Source of the DNA: Akkermansiaceae bacterium
GTDB taxonomy: Bacteria; Verrucomicrobiota; Verrucomicrobiia; Verrucomicrobiales; Akkermansiaceae
NCBI GenBank assembly: GCA_013001695.1
Contig: JABDMC010000311.1
Location: forward strand, 1 to 63,036
Reading direction: 5' to 3'
DNA length: 63,036 nucleotides
The notes beneath the pieces were generated by a model, which was given only the letters and a program-made list of their open reading frames with translations, searched no databases and had not been told where the DNA came from. Positions 1-32,538 of this stretch are shown here, piece by piece. Numbering within the stretch: the first letter of the stretch is position 1; each line of letters begins with the position of its first letter. A program made the translations under genes and the position numbers.

Positions 1-813
1 GAGTTGCACTGCATCAACCGCAAACACAAGCAGCACGGTGATCGGAGACAGGTTGGTCTGAAAAGTCCAGCACCTGACAAGCCCATCAAGGTTCGTGTGG
101 CATCTTATAATGTGGAGTTCGGCAAAAGCGCGACCCCGGAACAGATCGGTGAAATGTTCAAGCCGTACAAACTGGACATCATCGGTTTTGACGAAGCTCC
201 AGATGGCAACTGGACGGCGCGCGTCGGCAAAGTACTCGGGATGAAATACAACTATGTGGGCAAGATTTCATCGGCCAACCACAAGAATAAGTACAAGACG
301 ATTCTCAGCAGGACACCGCTGGAAGGCACTGAAGAACACGAACTCACGGGCCGTGGTTGGAATCCCGCATCGGTTGTCAGAGCAGTGACTCAGATTGATG
401 GAGTTTCAGTCGCATTTTACTCCCTGCATATCTGCAAGTCGGGCGCCAATGACGGTCATGCGCATAGCCTTGCGACCAAAGTTCTACCTGAGGAGGCAAC
501 TGGGAGGGTTATCGTCGTTGGGGATTACAACAACAACATCGGCGACGCTGCCATGAAAACGGTCGAGGGGGCAGGGTTTAGAGCAACGTGGAACGATCTG
601 AAGATTGATGTCTCCAAGGCGTTTACATACAACGCCCAGAATCCCAAGGAGAATCTCGGTGTGATCGATCACATTTTGTACAGTAACCTGCCTGGCGCGG
701 AGGCAACAGACGGAGGCATAATCGAGCTAAAAGATCCTTTGTCTGATCACAAACCGATCTGGGCGGAGATAGCATTCCCTCGAAAATCCAAGAAGGTAAG
801 CGGCTCTGAATAG
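1..813 (+). CDS. Endonuclease/exonuclease/phosphatase-fold protein, 5' truncated by window edge
   Basis: The reading frame is open at the left edge, so the true start and any signal peptide lie outside; the first possible start inside is a TTG at 4. The EEP (DNase I-like) fold is recognised from its ordered metal and catalytic motifs: VASYNVEF near residue 32, the Glu of GFDEAPDGNW near 61, GDYNNN near 173, and the C-terminal SDHKPIW, where SDH is the classic catalytic Asp-His pair. Family members hydrolyse phosphodiester bonds in nucleic acids, lipids or phosphoinositides; the substrate cannot be told here. The stretch has visibly lower GC and more A/T-ending codons than the rest of the window, which hints at recent transfer. 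It ends with TAG at 811-813. Confidence 0.8.
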   Translation, partial: ELHCINRKHKQHGDRRQVGLKSPAPDKPIKVRVASYNVEFGKSATPEQIGEMFKPYKLDIIGFDEAPDGNWTARVGKVLGMKYNYVGKISSANHKNKYKTILSRTPLEGTEEHELTGRGWNPASVVRAVTQIDGVSVAFYSLHICKSGANDGHAHSLATKVLPEEATGRVIVVGDYNNNIGDAAMKTVEGAGFRATWNDLKIDVSKAFTYNAQNPKENLGVIDHILYSNLPGAEATDGGIIELKDPLSDHKPIWAEIAFPRKSKKVSGSE

Positions 814-960
814 ACGGAACATCGCCAACCAAAGCGTTGCACAGCGACGTGGTAAACCACGCGCGTGAACGCGAACGTCAGGAGTCGAATCTGCCGGCCC
901 ATGGGATTGCCCTTGCGACCATGCTGCACCGCCTGATAATGGCGAGAGGGAGGTGAGAGC

Positions 961-1422
961 TTGGCCTTGATCGAATCGCAATCGACGGAAATTGCCGCAG
1001 AGGCGGAGTCCGTGTGGAACGTCATCACGGACATTCGTCACGCGGCAAACGTGATTTCGGGAATCAAGGAAATTCAGATTCTCGAGGAGGCTGCCGGTCC
1101 GCACTTTGTGGGATTGAAGTGGAAGGAAACCCGGGAGTGGATGGGGAAGGATGCCGTGGAGGTCATGTGGATCACCGACGCGTGCGCCCCAACGTTCTAC
1201 GAGACCCGCGCCGAGAGCCATGGCTCCGTATACCAATCCAGATTCGAGCTGGAGCCGACAGAATGCGGGACGCGCCTGACGATGCAGTTCAATTGCCGGC
1301 CGGAAACCATCGGCGCCAGGATCATGTGGATCCTGATGGGGTGGATGGCAAAGAGGTCTCTTCGCAAGGTGATCGCCCAGGACTTGAAGGACGTGAAAAG
1401 CGCCGTTGAAAATGCGCAATGA
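961..1422 (+). CDS. SRPBCC (START/Bet v1-like) family protein
   Basis: 153 residues that fit one SRPBCC ligand-binding domain: an N-terminal strand (IESQSTEIAAEAESVWNVITD) followed by a helix-grip pattern and a long C-terminal helix (SLRKVIAQDLKDVKSAVENAQ). The family binds hydrophobic small molecules or acts as a cyclase/dehydrase; no catalytic residue can be assigned. The start is a TTG supported by a strong ribosome binding site, AGGGAGGTGAG, about 6 bases upstream. No signal peptide is seen, so it is probably cytosolic. It stands alone with roughly 150 bp of empty sequence on each side. Confidence 0.8.
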   Translation: MALIESQSTEIAAEAESVWNVITDIRHAANVISGIKEIQILEEAAGPHFVGLKWKETREWMGKDAVEVMWITDACAPTFYETRAESHGSVYQSRFELEPTECGTRLTMQFNCRPETIGARIMWILMGWMAKRSLRKVIAQDLKDVKSAVENAQ

Positions 1423-1569
1423 TGGTTGCGACCAGGTGCTGAGTGGAACTCCCGGACCAGGCGCGCCATGCAACGAATCGTTGCAGCGGAGGTTTGGCCG
1501 GCCGCCCCTTTTTGCCGGCGCCAACACCGCCGTCGGGTCGCATGCCGCTGAACCAGGGCGATCGTCCAT

Positions 1570-2058
1570 GTGATGCACTATCGCGAGATTACTCCAGGGG
1601 ACATGCCGGCCATCTTCGAGGTCCGGGTCAAGACATGGCACAACCCCCATGGTGCCGAGGAGCTGGAGAGGATGGGCATCACACCCGACTCGGTACGCGG
1701 GATGTTGCGGGAAACGCATCGTGGCTGGCTGGCGGAAGCAAACGAAGAGGTCGTCGGATTCGTGATGGGCAACAAGCAGACCGGCGAGATGTGGGTGATC
1801 GCCGTGTTGAAGGACCACGAAAACCGGGGGATCGGAAGATCCCTCATGCGGTTGATCGAAGACTGGCTGGTTTCCGAGGGGTGTGATGAATTGTGGCTGA
1901 CGACCGACCCCGATGAGAATTGTCGCGCGGTGGGTTTTTACAGGCATCTTGGGTGGGAAGACTGGAAGATGGAAAGCGGTGATCGCTTCATGAGAAAACG
2001 AAGCGATCAAGTCGTGGCCGACCAACAGGCCGCCCGCCGCGATGGGAAGGCGCCGTGA
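1570..2058 (+). CDS. GNAT family N-acetyltransferase
   Basis: A 162-residue protein with the full GNAT fold: N-terminal REITPGDMPAIFEVRVKTW, the central strand MWVIAVLKDHENRG, and the acetyl-CoA pyrophosphate loop ENRGIGRSLMRLI (R/Q-x-x-G-x-G/A type) near residue 86, then the C-terminal motif AVGFYRHLGWE near 118. It should transfer an acetyl group from acetyl-CoA to a primary amine of unknown identity. The start is GTG at 1570 or the ATG directly after it. The last 20 or so residues are charged and lie outside the domain. Monocistronic. Confidence 0.85.
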   Translation: MMHYREITPGDMPAIFEVRVKTWHNPHGAEELERMGITPDSVRGMLRETHRGWLAEANEEVVGFVMGNKQTGEMWVIAVLKDHENRGIGRSLMRLIEDWLVSEGCDELWLTTDPDENCRAVGFYRHLGWEDWKMESGDRFMRKRSDQVVADQQAARRDGKAP

Positions 2059-2391
2059 ATGCTCCCATTCTCGAACCGGAATCCGGAGGGCGCCCCCGGC
2101 CGCCTTGGGCCGCCCGATCACAATATCGCCTTTGCCTGCCATGCAATGCCCCGCCTGCCTCCGGAAAGCGGGATTGAATCGCGCCATTGGGCCATGCTCG
2201 CCGGGGCCGGAACGTCCGGGATTTCGCGGCCGGGCGACACCTGCGGCCCGCGCCCCGGCCCCCCTGAGGCGGCGGCCATCCCTCGGAGGCGGCGGCCATC
2301 GCGCCTCGACTCCCCGAAGTCCAAACCGTAGAACGACCCGAAGCCGGGACCGTCGGCGGTGGCCGGCGGCACCCCTCCCGAATTGATTGCG
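2059..2391. other. Intergenic stretch with a short direct repeat
   Basis: About 330 bp of GC-rich sequence between the acetyltransferase and the lipoprotein, with no convincing gene on either strand. It holds a perfect 15-bp direct repeat, GAGGCGGCGGCCATC, at 2266-2280 and 2286-2300 (20-bp period). No promoter or terminator stands out. Confidence 0.5.
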
Positions 2392-2613
2392 ATGAAGATG
2401 AGACGCGCTGCCGCCATGGGGGCCATCGCCGCCAGCCTGACGCTCGGGACCAGTTGCAGCGCCATCCTCGACTCGCTTCTCGAAAGTGATTCGGACAGGT
2501 ACGAGGAGCGCCGCAGGAAAGCGTACGAAAGCAAGGGAGTAGATCCCGAGCGCGCAAGGCGCATGGCCTTCGAAGACAAGGTGTGGGGCGGGAGTCCCAC
2601 CGTGATACGATAG
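2392..2613 (+). CDS. Small putative lipoprotein, function unknown
   Basis: 73 residues starting MKMRRAAAMGAIAAS and leading into a lipobox-like LGTSC with the Cys near residue 22, so the mature product is probably a lipid-anchored peptide of about 50 residues. The mature part is highly charged (SDSDRYEERRRKAYESKG) and ends WGGSPTVIR. The frame is open upstream to 2359 with another start, but the start at 2392 is the one that places the signal peptide correctly. I do not recognise the family. Confidence 0.6.
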   Translation: MKMRRAAAMGAIAASLTLGTSCSAILDSLLESDSDRYEERRRKAYESKGVDPERARRMAFEDKVWGGSPTVIR

Positions 2614-2674
2614 CACCGGCCTTGTCTCCGCGCCGCCGGCGGACCACGCGGCGTGACGTGAGGCCCGCGAGATT

Positions 2675-3028
2675 ATGACCATAAAGCGAATTGTGCCCGA
2701 CATTTCATCGGAGCAGATGGATGAGAGCCGGAAGTTCTATGCCGGGTTTCTTGGGTTGGAGCTGGCGATGGACATGGGGTGGGTGCTGACCTTCGCGTCC
2801 CCGGGCAATCCGACGGCCCAGATCACGGTGTTGCAGGCGTCCACCTCGGCCATCCCGAATCCGGACGTGTCCATCGAGGTGGAAGACGTCGACGCCGTGC
2901 ACGCCAAGGCCGTGGAGCTTGGCCTCAAGGTTGTCTACCCGCTGACGAACGAGCCCTGGGGTGTTCGCCGCTTCTTTGTGGAAGACCCGAATGGCGCGGT
3001 GGTCAACATCCTGAGCCACGAGAAATGA
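2675..3028 (+). CDS. VOC (glyoxalase/bleomycin resistance) superfamily protein
   Basis: 117 residues with two beta-alpha-beta-beta-beta units: DISSEQMDESRKFYAGFLGLEL at the N-terminus and DVDAVHAKAVELGLKV followed by RRFFVEDPNGAVVNIL at the C-terminus. The FYxxxLGLE and FVEDPNG motifs are typical of single-domain vicinal oxygen chelate proteins that dimerise to form a metal site; the C-terminal metal ligand position is occupied by Asn/Val-rich sequence, so catalysis is uncertain. It may be a dioxygenase/isomerase or a drug-binding protein. Cytosolic. Confidence 0.85.
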   Translation: MTIKRIVPDISSEQMDESRKFYAGFLGLELAMDMGWVLTFASPGNPTAQITVLQASTSAIPNPDVSIEVEDVDAVHAKAVELGLKVVYPLTNEPWGVRRFFVEDPNGAVVNILSHEK

Positions 3029-26350: not shown

Positions 26351-26896
26351 TCAGGAGCCGGCGCCCTCGCGCACGCGCCCGAGGATCGATCCGATCGATG
26401 GCCGGTCGGCCGGGCCGGACCCGACGTGGTGCAGGCGGACGATCCCGCCCGGGTCGACGAGCACATCGCCGCCGAGCTGGGTGACGTCGCTCCCGGGCCG
26501 GTGCAGCCGCCGGCCCCTGGCCATGAGCTTGAGGTAAGCCCGGATCGCCGGCGGTCCGTAGAGATCCCACGCCTTGCCGCGCATCATGCCGCAGGCCCGG
26601 TAGAGGCCGCGGTCCCGGTCAAGGAGCAGGGGCCATTGGAGCCCGGTTTCCCGGACGTAGGCCTCGGCCATCGGCCCGTGGTCGAAGGTCACCACGGCCA
26701 CCGCCACATTCGCGGCCTCGAGTTCGTCCTGCTTCCCGCGCAACTGCGTGAGGTGTTCGCGGCACGGCAGTCAGCCGAGGTGCCGGTGAAAGACGAGCAG
26801 CAGCCAGCGGTCCCGGTAGTCGCCGAGGGTGTGCACCCGGCCGGCGAGGTCCGGCAGCGAAAATTCCGGGGCGGATTTGCCGGTGAGATCGGACAT
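26351..26896 (-). CDS. Peroxiredoxin-like (AhpC/TSA) protein, candidate selenoprotein with TGA at residue 42
   Basis: Read from ATG at 26896, the frame gives 181 residues interrupted once by TGA at 26773-26771 (codon 42). The sequence around it is LLLVFHRHLG-[TGA]-LPCREHLTQLR: the TGA falls exactly where AhpC/TSA-type redox proteins have the catalytic Cys of a CxxC, and the second Cys (45) is intact. Both sides keep the thioredoxin fold: SAPEFSLPDLAGRVHTLGDYRDRW before it, AVAVVTFDHGPMAEAY and GGDVLVDPGGIVRLHHVG after it. A SECIS-like hairpin lies at the expected distance. The simplest reading is a Sec-x-x-Cys peroxide reductase; a nonsense mutation is the alternative. It is 73 bp after CopA and 74 bp before ThuA, same strand. 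Confidence 0.7.
26735..26752 (-). promoter_or_regulatory. Candidate bacterial SECIS hairpin
   Basis: In the mRNA sense, bases 19-36 after the TGA read CUCACGC-type 5' arm, loop AGUU, and GCGCGGG 3' arm (CGC/GCG, one A-C mismatch, then C-G, U-G, C-G). The loop begins 26 bases after TGA and has a G within its first two positions, as bacterial SECIS models require. A competing longer stem (CCGCG..CGCGG) surrounds it. Confidence 0.5.
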
Positions 26897-26969
26897 GGGA
26901 CGACGGGACATTCCTGACCGTCCCGGGCGGTTCGTCAACTCATTCCGTCCGCGGCCGATTCCCCGGCCG

Positions 26970-29144
26970 TCAGTCCATCTTCATCCTGCGCAGGCGCAGG
27001 GCGTTCGAGATCACCGACACGCTGGAGAAGCTCATGGCGGCCCCGGCGATCATGGGGCTCAGGAGGGTGCCGGTGAAGGGGAACAGGATGCCGGCGGCGA
27101 CGGGCACGCCCACCGCATTGTAGACGAAGGCGAAGAAAAGGTTCTGGCGGATGTTGCGCATCACGGCCCGGCTCAGTGCGATGGCCTTCGCGATCCCGGA
27201 GAGGTCCCCCTTGACGAGGGTGATCCCGGCGCTTTCGATGGCGACGTCGGTCCCGGTGCCCATCGCGATGCCGACGTGCGCCTCGGCGAGGGCGGGGGCG
27301 TCGTTGATGCCGTCGCCGGCCACCGCCACGACGGCCCCGTTTTCCTTGAGTTCCCTGACGAGCGCGATCTTGTCCCCGGGGGACAACCCGGCGCGGACTT
27401 CGTCGATGCCGAGGGCGCCGCCCACGGCCTCGCCCGTCCGCCGGTTGTCGCCGGTGGCCATGATGACGCGGATGCCCTGCCGGTGCAGGGCGGCGATGGC
27501 GGCAGGCGTGGTCTCCTTGACGGGATCCGAGATGCCGATGATGCCGAGGGCGCGATCGTCGCCGGCCACCCACACCACCGTCTGGGCCTCTTCCTCGAGT
27601 TGCGCGGAGCGGGCGGCCAGGTCGTCCGGGATGGCGACCCCGTTGGCGCGCAGGAAGTCCCGCTTGCCGACGCGGATCGTGGCCCCGCCCACCCGGCCCG
27701 AAACGCCCCCGCCGGTCGTGGATTCAAAGTGCTCCGCGGCGGGAATGGCGAGGGCCCGCGCCGCATCGACGATGGCGCGCGCCAGCGGATGCTCGGAACG
27801 GCTCTCGAGCGAGGCCGCGAGGGCGAGCATTTCATCCGCACTGCCGCCCCCCGCCGCGGCGCGGCTGGTGACGCGCGGTTCCCCGGCCGTGAGCGTGCCG
27901 GTCTTGTCGGTGAGGAGGGTGTCGACCTTCCCCGCGAGTTCAATCGCCTCGGCATTCTTGATGAGAATCCCCGCCTGCGCGGCGCGGCCGACCCCCACCA
28001 TGATCGACATGGGCGTCGCGAGACCGAGGGCACAGGGGCAGGCGATGATGAGAACCGCCACGGCGTTGACGATCGCATACGCCATCGCGGGGGCCGGCCC
28101 CCAGACCGCCCAGGCCCCGAAGGTGACGACCGCAACCAGGATCACGGCGGGAACGAAGTAGCCCGCCACGGTGTCGGCGAGCCCCTGGATCGGGGCGCGG
28201 CTGCGTTGGGCTTCCGCCACCATCCGCACGATCCGGGAAAGCAGGGTGTCGCCCCCGGTCCTGTCGGCGCGCATCACGAACGACCCGGTCTGGTTCACGG
28301 TGGCGCCGATGACCGGGTCGCCGTCTCCCTTCGCCACCGGGACCGGTTCGCCGGTGATCATGGATTCATCGACGTTGCTCCGGCCCTCGGTGATGACCCC
28401 GTCGATGGGGACCTTCTCCCCGGGACGAACGCGCAGAAGGTCGCCGCGCTGCAGGTCGTCGACGGGGACTTCCTCTTCCCGGCCGTCGCGCAGCCGGTGC
28501 GCGGTCTTGGCGGCGAGGCCGAGCAGGGATTTGATGGCCTGCCCGGTCCGGCTGCGGGCCCTCGCCTCGAGAAGCTGGCCGAGCAGGACGAGAATCGTGA
28601 TGACCGCCGCGGCCTCGAAGTAGAGCCCGACCTCGCCGTCCTTCCGGAACGACTCCGGGAAGATTCCGGGGGCCACGACCGCCACGGCGCTGAACACATA
28701 CGCCGCGCCGACACCCATCATGATGAGGGTGAACATGTTGGGGTTGCGGTTCAGGATCGACCGCCAGCCCTTCACAAGGAGAAACCCGCCGCACCACGAG
28801 ACCACCACCGACGTCAGCGCAAACTCGATCCACTTCGCCACCCCCTTGGGAACGAGATCGTGCAGCTGCAAGCCGGGGATCATTCCGCCCATGGCGAGCA
28901 GGAACACCGGAATCGTCAGGACCAGCCCCGTCCAGAACTTGCGGGTGAGGGTGCGGATCTCGGCGGCGGCGTGCGGGTCGTCCGCGCCGGGAGAAACCGG
29001 CTCGAGAGGCATGCCGCATTTCGGGCAGTCTCCGGGCTGGTCCGCGGCGACCTCCGGGTGCATCGGGCAGGTCCACTGTCCCGGGCGCGCCTGCGATTCG
29101 GCGGGACCCGGCGGGGTGGTTTCATGATGACAGCAGTCCGCCAT
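26970..29144 (-). CDS. CopA-type copper-translocating P1B ATPase
   Basis: 724 residues from MADCCHHET; an earlier in-frame ATG at 29201 would add 19 residues. Instead of a classical HMA domain the N-terminus carries Cys4-Cys5-His6-His7 and a heavy-metal-binding zinc-ribbon-like domain (CPMH at 26-29, CPKCGM at 40-45). The P-type core is complete: TGEP phosphatase loop near 270, membrane motif ACPCAL near 368, phosphorylation site DKTGTLT near 411, SEHPLA near 455, GDGIND near 620. Transports Cu(I) out of the cytosol. The preceding gene encodes an azurin-like copper protein, so it may also supply copper to it. Confidence 0.92.
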
Positions 29145-29245: not shown

Positions 29246-31798
29246 CTACTCGACGATCATCTCCCCCCGCATGATCATCCAGTGGCCCGGAAATGTGCAG
29301 ATGTACGGGTAGCGGCCGGGTGGGCGGGGCGCGTCGAAGACGACGAGATCCTTGTCGCCACCGTTGATGACCGCGGTGTGGAAGACGACGCCGGGATGAT
29401 CGGGGACGTAGGCTTTCCCGATGGCGTTGGGATCGGCGAGCATTCCGTCCGCCAGCCTGCCGATCGCTTCGGCGGTGCCCGGCTTGACGATCACGAGGTT
29501 GTGGGGAATGACATCCGTGTTCTCGAAAAGAAGACGGATCCGTTCCCCGGCCTTCACGGTGAACTCCTTCCGGTCGAACTGGAGCCCGGTGACGGCCTTC
29601 ATCGTGATGGCGCGCCCGCCCTGCAGCTTCGGTTCGTCCCGCTTCTTCGGTTCCGGCCAGCGGATGCGCAGGACCAGATCGCGCGGCTTGTTCGGGACGG
29701 CCGCAACGAGACCGGGGGCCCCGTCGAAGCGCGGCCCGAGCCGCTTGACCGTCGGAAACAGGTTCACCTCGAAACGGGATCCGTCGCTTGCCACCAGCCG
29801 GCCGTGGAGGTGGAACTGCATGACCGGCATCAGGTCCGGAATCTCCACGAACACCGTCCGGGCGTCGTCGAGGACGCGCGCGGAGGCGATCGCGACGGAG
29901 TCGTGGCCGATGGTATCCGGCTTGTGGACCGAGAACTCCGGCGAGCCGTACTGGCCCGCGTACTGGTAGTTCCACTGCTGGGCAAACCAGTTGGACACCT
30001 GTTCCGCGGCGGCGCGATCAAGCGGCCTGCTGAAGGTGACCGCGATGCCGTTGGAGTGGATCCTGAAGCCGACCGGCAGGTCGGCCGGCTTGGCGGTGTA
30101 GCGGACGCGCTGGAAGCAGCCTTCCTCGATGGCGTAGTCACCCCAGCCTTCCGACCCGGTCACGTAGAGCTGGCCGTCGTGCGGGCTGAACCGGGCCCGG
30201 TTCGGGGCGGCGAGAAAGTCACCCCGCAGCGGCACCGCCGCGCCCTGCTTCACGCCGGTGCTTGCGTCAACCAGGACGGCGTAGTGCGTGCTGTTGCCGT
30301 AGCTCATGGCCAGCAGTTGGCCCGCCAGCGGGCCCCAGCCGGAGCGGTGGTCCGCAAAGACCAGCCCCCCGGTCGAGTTGTCGACCCCGCGCGGCACAAA
30401 ACACAACGGGGGATCGATGGTCCGGCCCCGCTTCGCGCCGAGGCCGAAGAAGCGCCCGTCCCGCGACTCCAGGATCATGGATGCCGGCGTCCATGTGCCC
30501 TCCTGCGGGGCGGTGACCACCATCCCGTCGCGGCGCACCCCGATGCCGTTCGGGTTCCGGATTCCGGTGGCCAGCGTCTCGAATGACTTCCCGTCCGGCG
30601 GGACCTTCACCGTGCCGATATGCTTCGTGGAAAAATAGAAATTCCCCGCCGCATCGCGCTGCAGATCGGTCGCGTAATCGTGGCCCCCGATCGAGGTCGG
30701 ATAATCGCAGAAATTCTCGAAATGGTCGGCCTCCCCGTCGTCGTTGAGGTCGTGGAGGCGCAGGATGCGGTCCTTGCACAGGACGTGCACGACGTCATCG
30801 ACGATCACGAGGCCGAGCGGTTGGTTCAACCCGGCCGCGAACCGGCGCCAGGTGACCTCCCGCAGCCCGGCATCGATCCCCTTCACGATCCAGACGTCGC
30901 CCATGATGGTGCTCACCGCGGCGTCCCCGTCGGAAAAGAAGTCGTGGCCGGCGAGGAACATGAGCGCCCGGTACGGGTTCTCGAGGGGCACCGGGATCGT
31001 GTCGATGGTGTAAGGCCGGTCGTCGGGACCCCGTTCGCCCGCGGCGGTGAAGGTCCAGGTCCATTCCGGCTTCGCGCCGTCGATGGCGGCGCGCACCTCC
31101 TCCATCGTCACCGGCCGGCGCCGCACGCCGGGCGTCCCGCCGTCCTCCCGCATGGTGACCTCCTCGATCCTTTCCCCGCCGTCGAGGCGGTAGTGGATGA
31201 ACCGGGCCCCGCCCGCGAGGAAGTAACCGAGGAACTCGCCCTGGCGCGCGGTGAAGTCCAGCGGTTGCACGTCGTCGCCGGCGTAGACGTTCTCCACGAT
31301 TCCCCACCGCCGGTCCCCGAACCGCACCCGGCCCCGCCAGTAGCTCTCGAAGGCGAGCGTCCCGGGGTTGAACACGAAGGTCACGGGCTCCTCGTCCGTG
31401 CCGAGCTGGAAGGTCAGGGCCTTGGGAACCACCTTTCCCGCGCCGCGCAGGGTGCATGCGACGACATCGCCGACATCCATCTGTGCCCAGGAATCGTCCT
31501 GGTGGCTGTTCTGGCTGAAGCGCCCCGAGTGCCCCCAGCGGCCGCCGTCGAGGCCGGGGAAGGCCGGCAGCACCTCCCCCGGTTCCGGCGGGTGGTCGAG
31601 ATACCACGCCGCCTGCCGTTCGTAGAAATCGTAGATCCGCGACTCATTGACCGCGGCGGCCGTGTGGTCGTGCCGGTCCCGCCCGCCCGCCGGATCCGCG
31701 TACGGCAGGTCGATGGGCTTCCCGTCCTGCGTCTCGGGCTTCGCGTCGAGTGCGTGCACTCCCGCAAGAATGACGGATAGAAGCCAGGCCGGGCGCAT
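29246..31798 (-). CDS. Secreted DUF6797/beta-propeller protein with C-terminal azurin-like copper domain
   Basis: 850 residues with a signal peptide ([16 protein letters not shown]). Residues about 25-260 match the DUF6797-type N-terminal region ([20 protein letters not shown]). A six-bladed propeller follows ([68 protein letters not shown]), like PQQ/sorbosone dehydrogenase-type proteins. The last 120 residues are a cupredoxin: His766 (PHNLVIV), Cys834, His839 and Met843 in [11 protein letters not shown], spaced as in azurin, form a type 1 copper site. Likely a periplasmic oxidoreductase passing electrons to its own copper centre. It precedes the Cu ATPase gene on the same strand. Confidence 0.85.
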
Positions 31799-31887
31799 GG
31801 AGGAGGTATACCTCGCCGGCGGCGGGTTCTTATCGCCCGCTGCCCCGGATCGCGGGATTCTTCGCGGTTTGCGTGCCGCCGGCGGAT

Positions 31888-32538
31888 TCACGCCACCGTC
31901 TTGACGGCCACGAGCCCGAGGTGGTCACCGGTGTCCTCGGCGCGGTCCGAAATGTGCACGATGCGCTCCACCGCCTTGCGGAGATGCAGCTTCGAGGCGA
32001 GATCCAGCGACGAGTCGAAAATGGAATTGGTGAGTTCCCACTCGATGTCGTCGGCAAGGGACTCCTGGATGCTCACGTCCGCCGTCAAGGTCCGGACTTC
32101 CTCGGTCTTGCCCTTCGGCTTGAAGAACGTCTTCACGGCCTCGCCGAGCGGCTTCACGGCCCCGAACGAGTTGGCGAGGAGTTTGCGAAATATCGGGGCG
32201 AATTCCTCCGGAATGGCCGGCTTCTCGCTCAGGAAAAAGGTCGCGCAGGCCTCCGCGGCATTCGGGACCCGGTCAAACATTTCGATCAAGGTGTAGATAT
32301 CGCCCCGGACGAGGGGAAGATAGGCGCCGGAGTGCAGCTTGTCGGCGATGGCGCGCTCGAGTTCGTCGGCCTTGGCCTCGAGCTTGCGGACCCGGTTGCG
32401 CAGGTCGCGGGCCGCGGCAAGATCACCGCCGAGGTAGGCGGCCACGGCCTGCTCGGCTTCCGTCACACAATCTGCGGAGACATCGAGGTACTCGTGGGCG
32501 AGCTCTGCGACCTCCTGTTCTTTCTTGAATATCTTCAT
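31888..32538 (-). CDS. DUF47/PhoU-like protein (PiT accessory)
   Basis: 216 residues, all helical, starting MKIFKKEQEVAELAHEYLDV. It matches the DUF47 (TIGR00153, PhoU-like) family: ARDLRNRVRKLEAKADELER near 47, IYTLIEMFDRVPNAAE near 83 and DLASKLHLRKAVERIVHISDRAEDTGD near the end. These proteins normally sit beside PiT transporters and are thought to regulate them. Here the PiT stop codon is 14 bp upstream, making it the last gene of the phosphate operon. Confidence 0.9.
   Translation of the reverse strand: MKIFKKEQEVAELAHEYLDVSADCVTEAEQAVAAYLGGDLAAARDLRNRVRKLEAKADELERAIADKLHSGAYLPLVRGDIYTLIEMFDRVPNAAEACATFFLSEKPAIPEEFAPIFRKLLANSFGAVKPLGEAVKTFFKPKGKTEEVRTLTADVSIQESLADDIEWELTNSIFDSSLDLASKLHLRKAVERIVHISDRAEDTGDHLGLVAVKTVA

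Follow-up and report, generated by a model that had tools for sequence, protein, structure and literature searches.

A gene on the minus strand of the 63,036-nucleotide stretch of Akkermansiaceae DNA analysed here (hereafter the window) almost certainly encodes a peroxiredoxin-like, SelL-related oxidoreductase in which UGA codon 42 is read as selenocysteine (Sec) through SelB and a downstream hairpin, giving a Sec-x-x-Cys redox pair. The original prediction that this TGA encodes Sec is supported by an alignment column holding only TGA or Cys, by a covarying hairpin behind the codon, and by the presence of selA, selB, tRNA-Sec and selD in the host genome.

A reading frame containing a single internal TGA

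The gene and its two redox codons are placed as follows.

26351..26896, minus strand: predicted SelL-related redox selenoprotein gene, 181 amino acids with Sec as residue 42, terminal TGA at 26353-26351
26771..26773, minus strand: in-frame TGA, codon 42, candidate Sec (first residue of U-L-P-C), the column compared across homologues
26762..26764, minus strand: TGC, Cys residue 45 of the Sec-x-x-Cys pair, invariant in 13/13 Sec members

Re-reading the sequence returned every position first given for this gene: the ATG at 26896, the TGA at codon 42 (26773-26771) in the context HRHLG-U-LPCREHL, and a further 139 residues that run to the terminal TGA with no other in-frame stop. The translation of this frame is MSDLTGKSAPEF...VFHRHLG-[TGA]-LPCREHLTQLR... 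A second in-frame ATG lies at 26911, 5 codons upstream of the ATG at 26896. The start at 26896 is favoured by the starts of homologues (e.g. MSDLTGK in L053), leaving a small uncertainty. It had also been anticipated that an ordinary gene finder would miscall the gene, and the list of open reading frames indeed gives just a 130-amino-acid 3' fragment (26743-26351) with a TTG start.

Comparison of the window gene with L050 yielded a dN of 0.31 and a dS of 1.54 before the TGA, and a dN of 0.23 and a dS of 0.83 after it. As dN is much smaller than dS both before and after the codon, the part of the gene downstream of the TGA is evidently under selection as protein.

TGA or cysteine at the codon-42 column

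Among about 85,000 species genomes scanned, 12 close homologues were identified, 51-70% identical to the window protein over nearly its whole length. Eleven belong to the Planctomycetota, Desulfuromonadales/Geobacter, Desulfobulbaceae, Hydrogenedentota or Acidobacteria (the Geobacter sequences being L054 and L055), and the twelfth is from an uncultured bacterium; the closest relatives by identity are planctomycetal. When aligned, all 12 carry a TGA at exactly the codon-42 column, followed by LPC, and a further search of one Planctomycetota class added one extra member, again with one in-frame TGA. Among 27 distant relatives the same column holds Cys in 26 and TGA in the remaining one. The column, where Cys or Sec had been expected, thus contains nothing else.

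The simplest alternative is that the TGA is a true stop, produced either by recent pseudogenisation or by a sequencing error in what is really a Cys codon. A single point change turns TGC or TGT into TGA, and the gene is missing from the sister genomes of the genus, both of which would suit such an origin. Against this, the TGA is shared by 12/12 separately assembled homologues, coding constraint persists past it, the hairpin behind it is kept beyond coding needs, and the frame is otherwise free of in-frame stops. Sequencing error at codon 42 is very unlikely in particular, because 12 separately assembled genomes share this TGA and a thirteenth also has an in-frame TGA. We therefore regard a true stop of either kind as highly improbable and retain the reading of codon 42 as Sec.

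Variation at this column was also seen closer to the host. Two distant relatives from the same order have a TGA of their own there: L031 (G090:C38:3495-3953), in the context RHPG-U-PFT, and L092 (G101:C55:289781-290206), in the context RHYG-U-IFC. These suggest repeated exchange of Cys and Sec at this position, although the TGA of L031 is doubtful because its genome, G090 (83% complete), gave no selA match. In the host itself, a Cys paralogue (L086, contig C290:3981-4439) with the motif RHFGCTFTRQ coexists with the Sec form.

A hairpin conserved behind the TGA

The region immediately following codon 42 contains the following element.

26735..26752, minus strand: SECIS-like hairpin, 7-bp stem (26752-26746 / 26741-26735) and AGUU loop (26745-26742)

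The distance from the UGA is 19 bases to the start of the stem and 26 bases to the start of the loop, both of which are as expected for SECIS elements of bacteria. The loop was found where it had been placed, starting at 26745 (AGTT) with a G in an early loop position. In the window, the element reads CTCACGC-AGTT-GCGCGGG and forms 6/7 pairs, with one A.C mismatch and one G.U. Taken singly it is moderately stable (-7.2 kcal/mol, equalled by 1.5% of synonymous recodings), and it is one of the weaker hairpins in the family.

The family as a whole is far more informative. We aligned the 60 bases from each TGA for 13 sequences, comprising the window and its 12 homologues; this alignment is gap-free and the AGUU loop lies at an identical distance from the TGA in 13/13. 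Because the hairpin sits inside coding sequence, the key control was synonymous recoding, carried out with each gene's own codon use. Across the 13 sequences, 87/91 pairs are formed, versus 58.2 +/- 4.0 expected and a maximum of 72 in 2000 recodings, while the AGUU loop, seen in 13/13, would be expected in 1.9/13. Furthermore, stem covariation reached 0.498 versus 0.186 on shuffling, with 0/500 column shuffles scoring as high and every slid register scoring lower, and the codons CAG TTG are invariant across the 13 sequences. The hairpin is conserved among these homologues beyond coding needs and far beyond chance.

Selenocysteine machinery in the host genome

An Rfam search of the window gave no match and no tRNA was found within it, so the Sec machinery was sought genome-wide. 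The host assembly (5.13 Mb in 399 contigs, 97% complete, 0.6% contaminated) contains selA (482 bits), selD (378 bits) and selB (286 bits), the last carrying both the beta-barrel and the winged-helix domains of SelB. It also contains a tRNA-SeC, whose anticodon is TCA; this scored 69.8 bits against the Rfam model and was confirmed with ARAGORN. With all four components located, the caveat attached to the original prediction, that the host machinery was unproven, no longer applies. These genes lie on other contigs than the window, and their tie to the selenoprotein gene is made via binning. The host selD (L018, contig C106:8706-9632, minus strand) is itself Sec-encoded, with an in-frame TGA in the context SCAG-U-ASKLG.

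Other lineages are known to read through UGA, and codon 42 might in principle be decoded as a standard amino acid, Trp or some other, through nonsense suppression or a change of code. The host, however, possesses a dedicated tRNA-Sec(UCA) together with selA, selB and selD, and relatives align Cys, not Trp, at codon 42. Furthermore, TGA is still a stop in this organism, because the selenoprotein gene and the adjacent ATPase gene both end in it. Decoding as a standard amino acid consequently has next to no probability in our estimation. On the basis of homologue conservation and host machinery we reject the pseudogene, sequencing-error and code-change readings, and continue with Sec at codon 42.

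The machinery is also widespread among the genomes that carry a TGA homologue, with selA in 12/12 and tRNA-Sec in 11/12. Within the host's own genus, selA was found in 13/14 other sampled genomes, from which we conclude that Sec decoding is general in the genus. The SelL-related gene, on the other hand, was not detected when the other 14 genomes of the genus were searched. In this lineage it must accordingly have been gained horizontally or have survived losses.

Several other candidate selenoproteins were encountered during this survey. The host has a second, L090 (contig C47:101-406, minus strand), a Bcp/Prx-like sequence with a TGA in DTPG-U-VQQ and a lipoprotein-like N-terminus ahead of this motif; a piece of it had no match in Pfam, possibly through having been cut in the wrong frame. 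Two other Prx-like proteins from genomes of the same family, L094 (G026:C5, HW-U-PFC) and L095 (G060:C29, AF-U-PPC), contain in-frame TGAs and are probable further selenoproteins.

Protein family, fold and proposed mechanism

The read-through protein matches the NCBIfam model NF040769, 'SelL-related redox protein', scoring 174 bits where the cut-off is 120 and aligning over model positions 1-171 of 173. The same model is matched by each of the 12 homologues. Within this family the window protein falls in a ULPC Sec subgroup, whereas distant members from its own phylum mostly have Cys at the column, in CxxC or CxxT. A Pfam AhpC-TSA domain is also recognised (69 bits), with the UxxC motif. By contrast, scores for the NCBIfam peroxiredoxin equivalogs fall far under their cut-offs (27.5 versus 260 bits for PrxQ, 15.3 versus 270 for PrxU), and the motif, FHRHLGULPC, departs from the T/S-x-x-C/U of canonical peroxiredoxins.

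An AlphaFold model built from a 13-sequence alignment adopts a thioredoxin/peroxiredoxin fold with a mean pLDDT of 89.7 and a pTM of 0.88. U42 lies just ahead of helix 43-54 in this model, where redox motifs usually sit. The initial description of the protein as 'peroxiredoxin-like' holds at the level of the fold but not as a precise family assignment, which is better given as SelL-related, or Prx-like with UxxC.

Canonical peroxiredoxins such as AhpE and Bcp/PrxQ have the thioredoxin fold and AhpC-TSA domain in common with the window protein. Their peroxidatic residue, however, sits in a TxxC/TxxU motif, whereas the window motif is UxxC. The TxxU motif of peroxiredoxins has been described, as has SelL, a Prx-like protein common to prokaryotes and eukaryotes (PMC2398784). 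Animal SelL, the namesake of NCBI's bacterial family, contains two Sec residues (PMC3473315); it is likewise Prx-like, but the second residue of the pair is Cys in the window protein, not Sec. Prx-like thiol:disulfide oxidoreductase selenoproteins were reported in 2006 in Geobacter, Desulfotalea and Syntrophus (PMC1794560), and UxxC/UxxU members of PF00578 have been predicted with high confidence (PMC13188914, PMC9312934). The window protein resembles this group (reference WP_010940744.1) in its Pfam family, its UxxC motif and the occurrence of its homologues in relatives of Geobacter and Desulfobulbaceae. We also considered the name 'ULPU-containing selenoprotein' (PMC5029168) for the ULPC protein and dropped it; our search turned up no sequence or description for it.

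Among solved structures, the second-ranked by fold is human prostamide/prostaglandin F synthase (PDB 9usa; TM 0.76, rmsd 1.8), which is 22% identical to the window protein. Its C44/C47 pair has the same spacing as U42/C45, although the human enzyme has Cys where the window protein has Sec, and its structure was solved as a C44S/C47S mutant.

We infer that Sec-tRNA(UCA) and SelB would insert Sec at UGA codon 42 during translation, with SelB binding the AGUU hairpin. Motif and fold suggest that Sec is most likely the attacking residue, on a peroxide or a disulfide, and that the Cys three positions on would serve as the resolving or partner thiol, the oxidised form being a selenenylsulfide. The probable role of the protein is thus thiol:disulfide or peroxide redox through the Sec-x-x-Cys pair, and we infer that it most likely reduces a peroxide or disulfide substrate with electrons from a thioredoxin-like donor.

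Genomic neighbourhood

The upstream neighbour of the selenoprotein gene is a P-type ATPase gene.

26970..29111, minus strand: heavy-metal (copper-type) P-type ATPase, with Pfam domains E1-E2_ATPase, Hydrolase and HMBD

This gene lies 73 bases from the selenoprotein ATG on the same strand, and is a possible operon partner. Upstream of the ATPase, an 881-amino-acid protein (29249-31891, minus strand) ends in a plastocyanin/azurin-type copper-binding domain, and together the two look like a copper-related stretch. We also considered whether the selenoprotein gene shares an operon with the ThuA-domain gene downstream of it; no such neighbour was recognised beside any homologue, and we make no such claim.

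The arrangement bears on function, and is compatible with Sec at codon 42: the protein could serve in copper or heavy-metal handling with the adjacent ATPase, and not in general redox defence. A heavy-metal P-type ATPase is found directly upstream and on the same strand both in the window and, in a distant bacterium, at L059 (Desulfobulbaceae), where the ATPase (270-2945, plus strand) is 56% identical to that of the window over 740 residues. However, the available flanks of the other 11 homologues, several of them short, yielded no ATPase frame with a DKTG motif, and the proteins have no recognised metal-binding motif beyond U-x-x-C. Adjacency in 2/13 cases is a lead and not a conclusion, and we consider a copper or heavy-metal role unlikely. 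The more specific proposal, that the ULPC gene arrived horizontally with or beside the P-type ATPase and that its product serves copper homeostasis as a redox partner dependent on selenium, seems more doubtful still. General redox activity through the Sec-x-x-Cys pair is the role that we prefer.

Significance

The window gene is a well-supported member of an already described selenoprotein family, and teaches nothing new about selenocysteine itself. Its value lies firstly in correcting the annotation of one gene, and in offering a clean example of how a standard ORF list can reduce a selenoprotein to the 3' fragment alone, supported in this case by full host Sec machinery and strong SECIS covariation within the family. 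More generally, the 13-sequence hairpin alignment, with its 7-bp stem, invariant AGUU loop and invariant CAG TTG, could help to find more members of the family.
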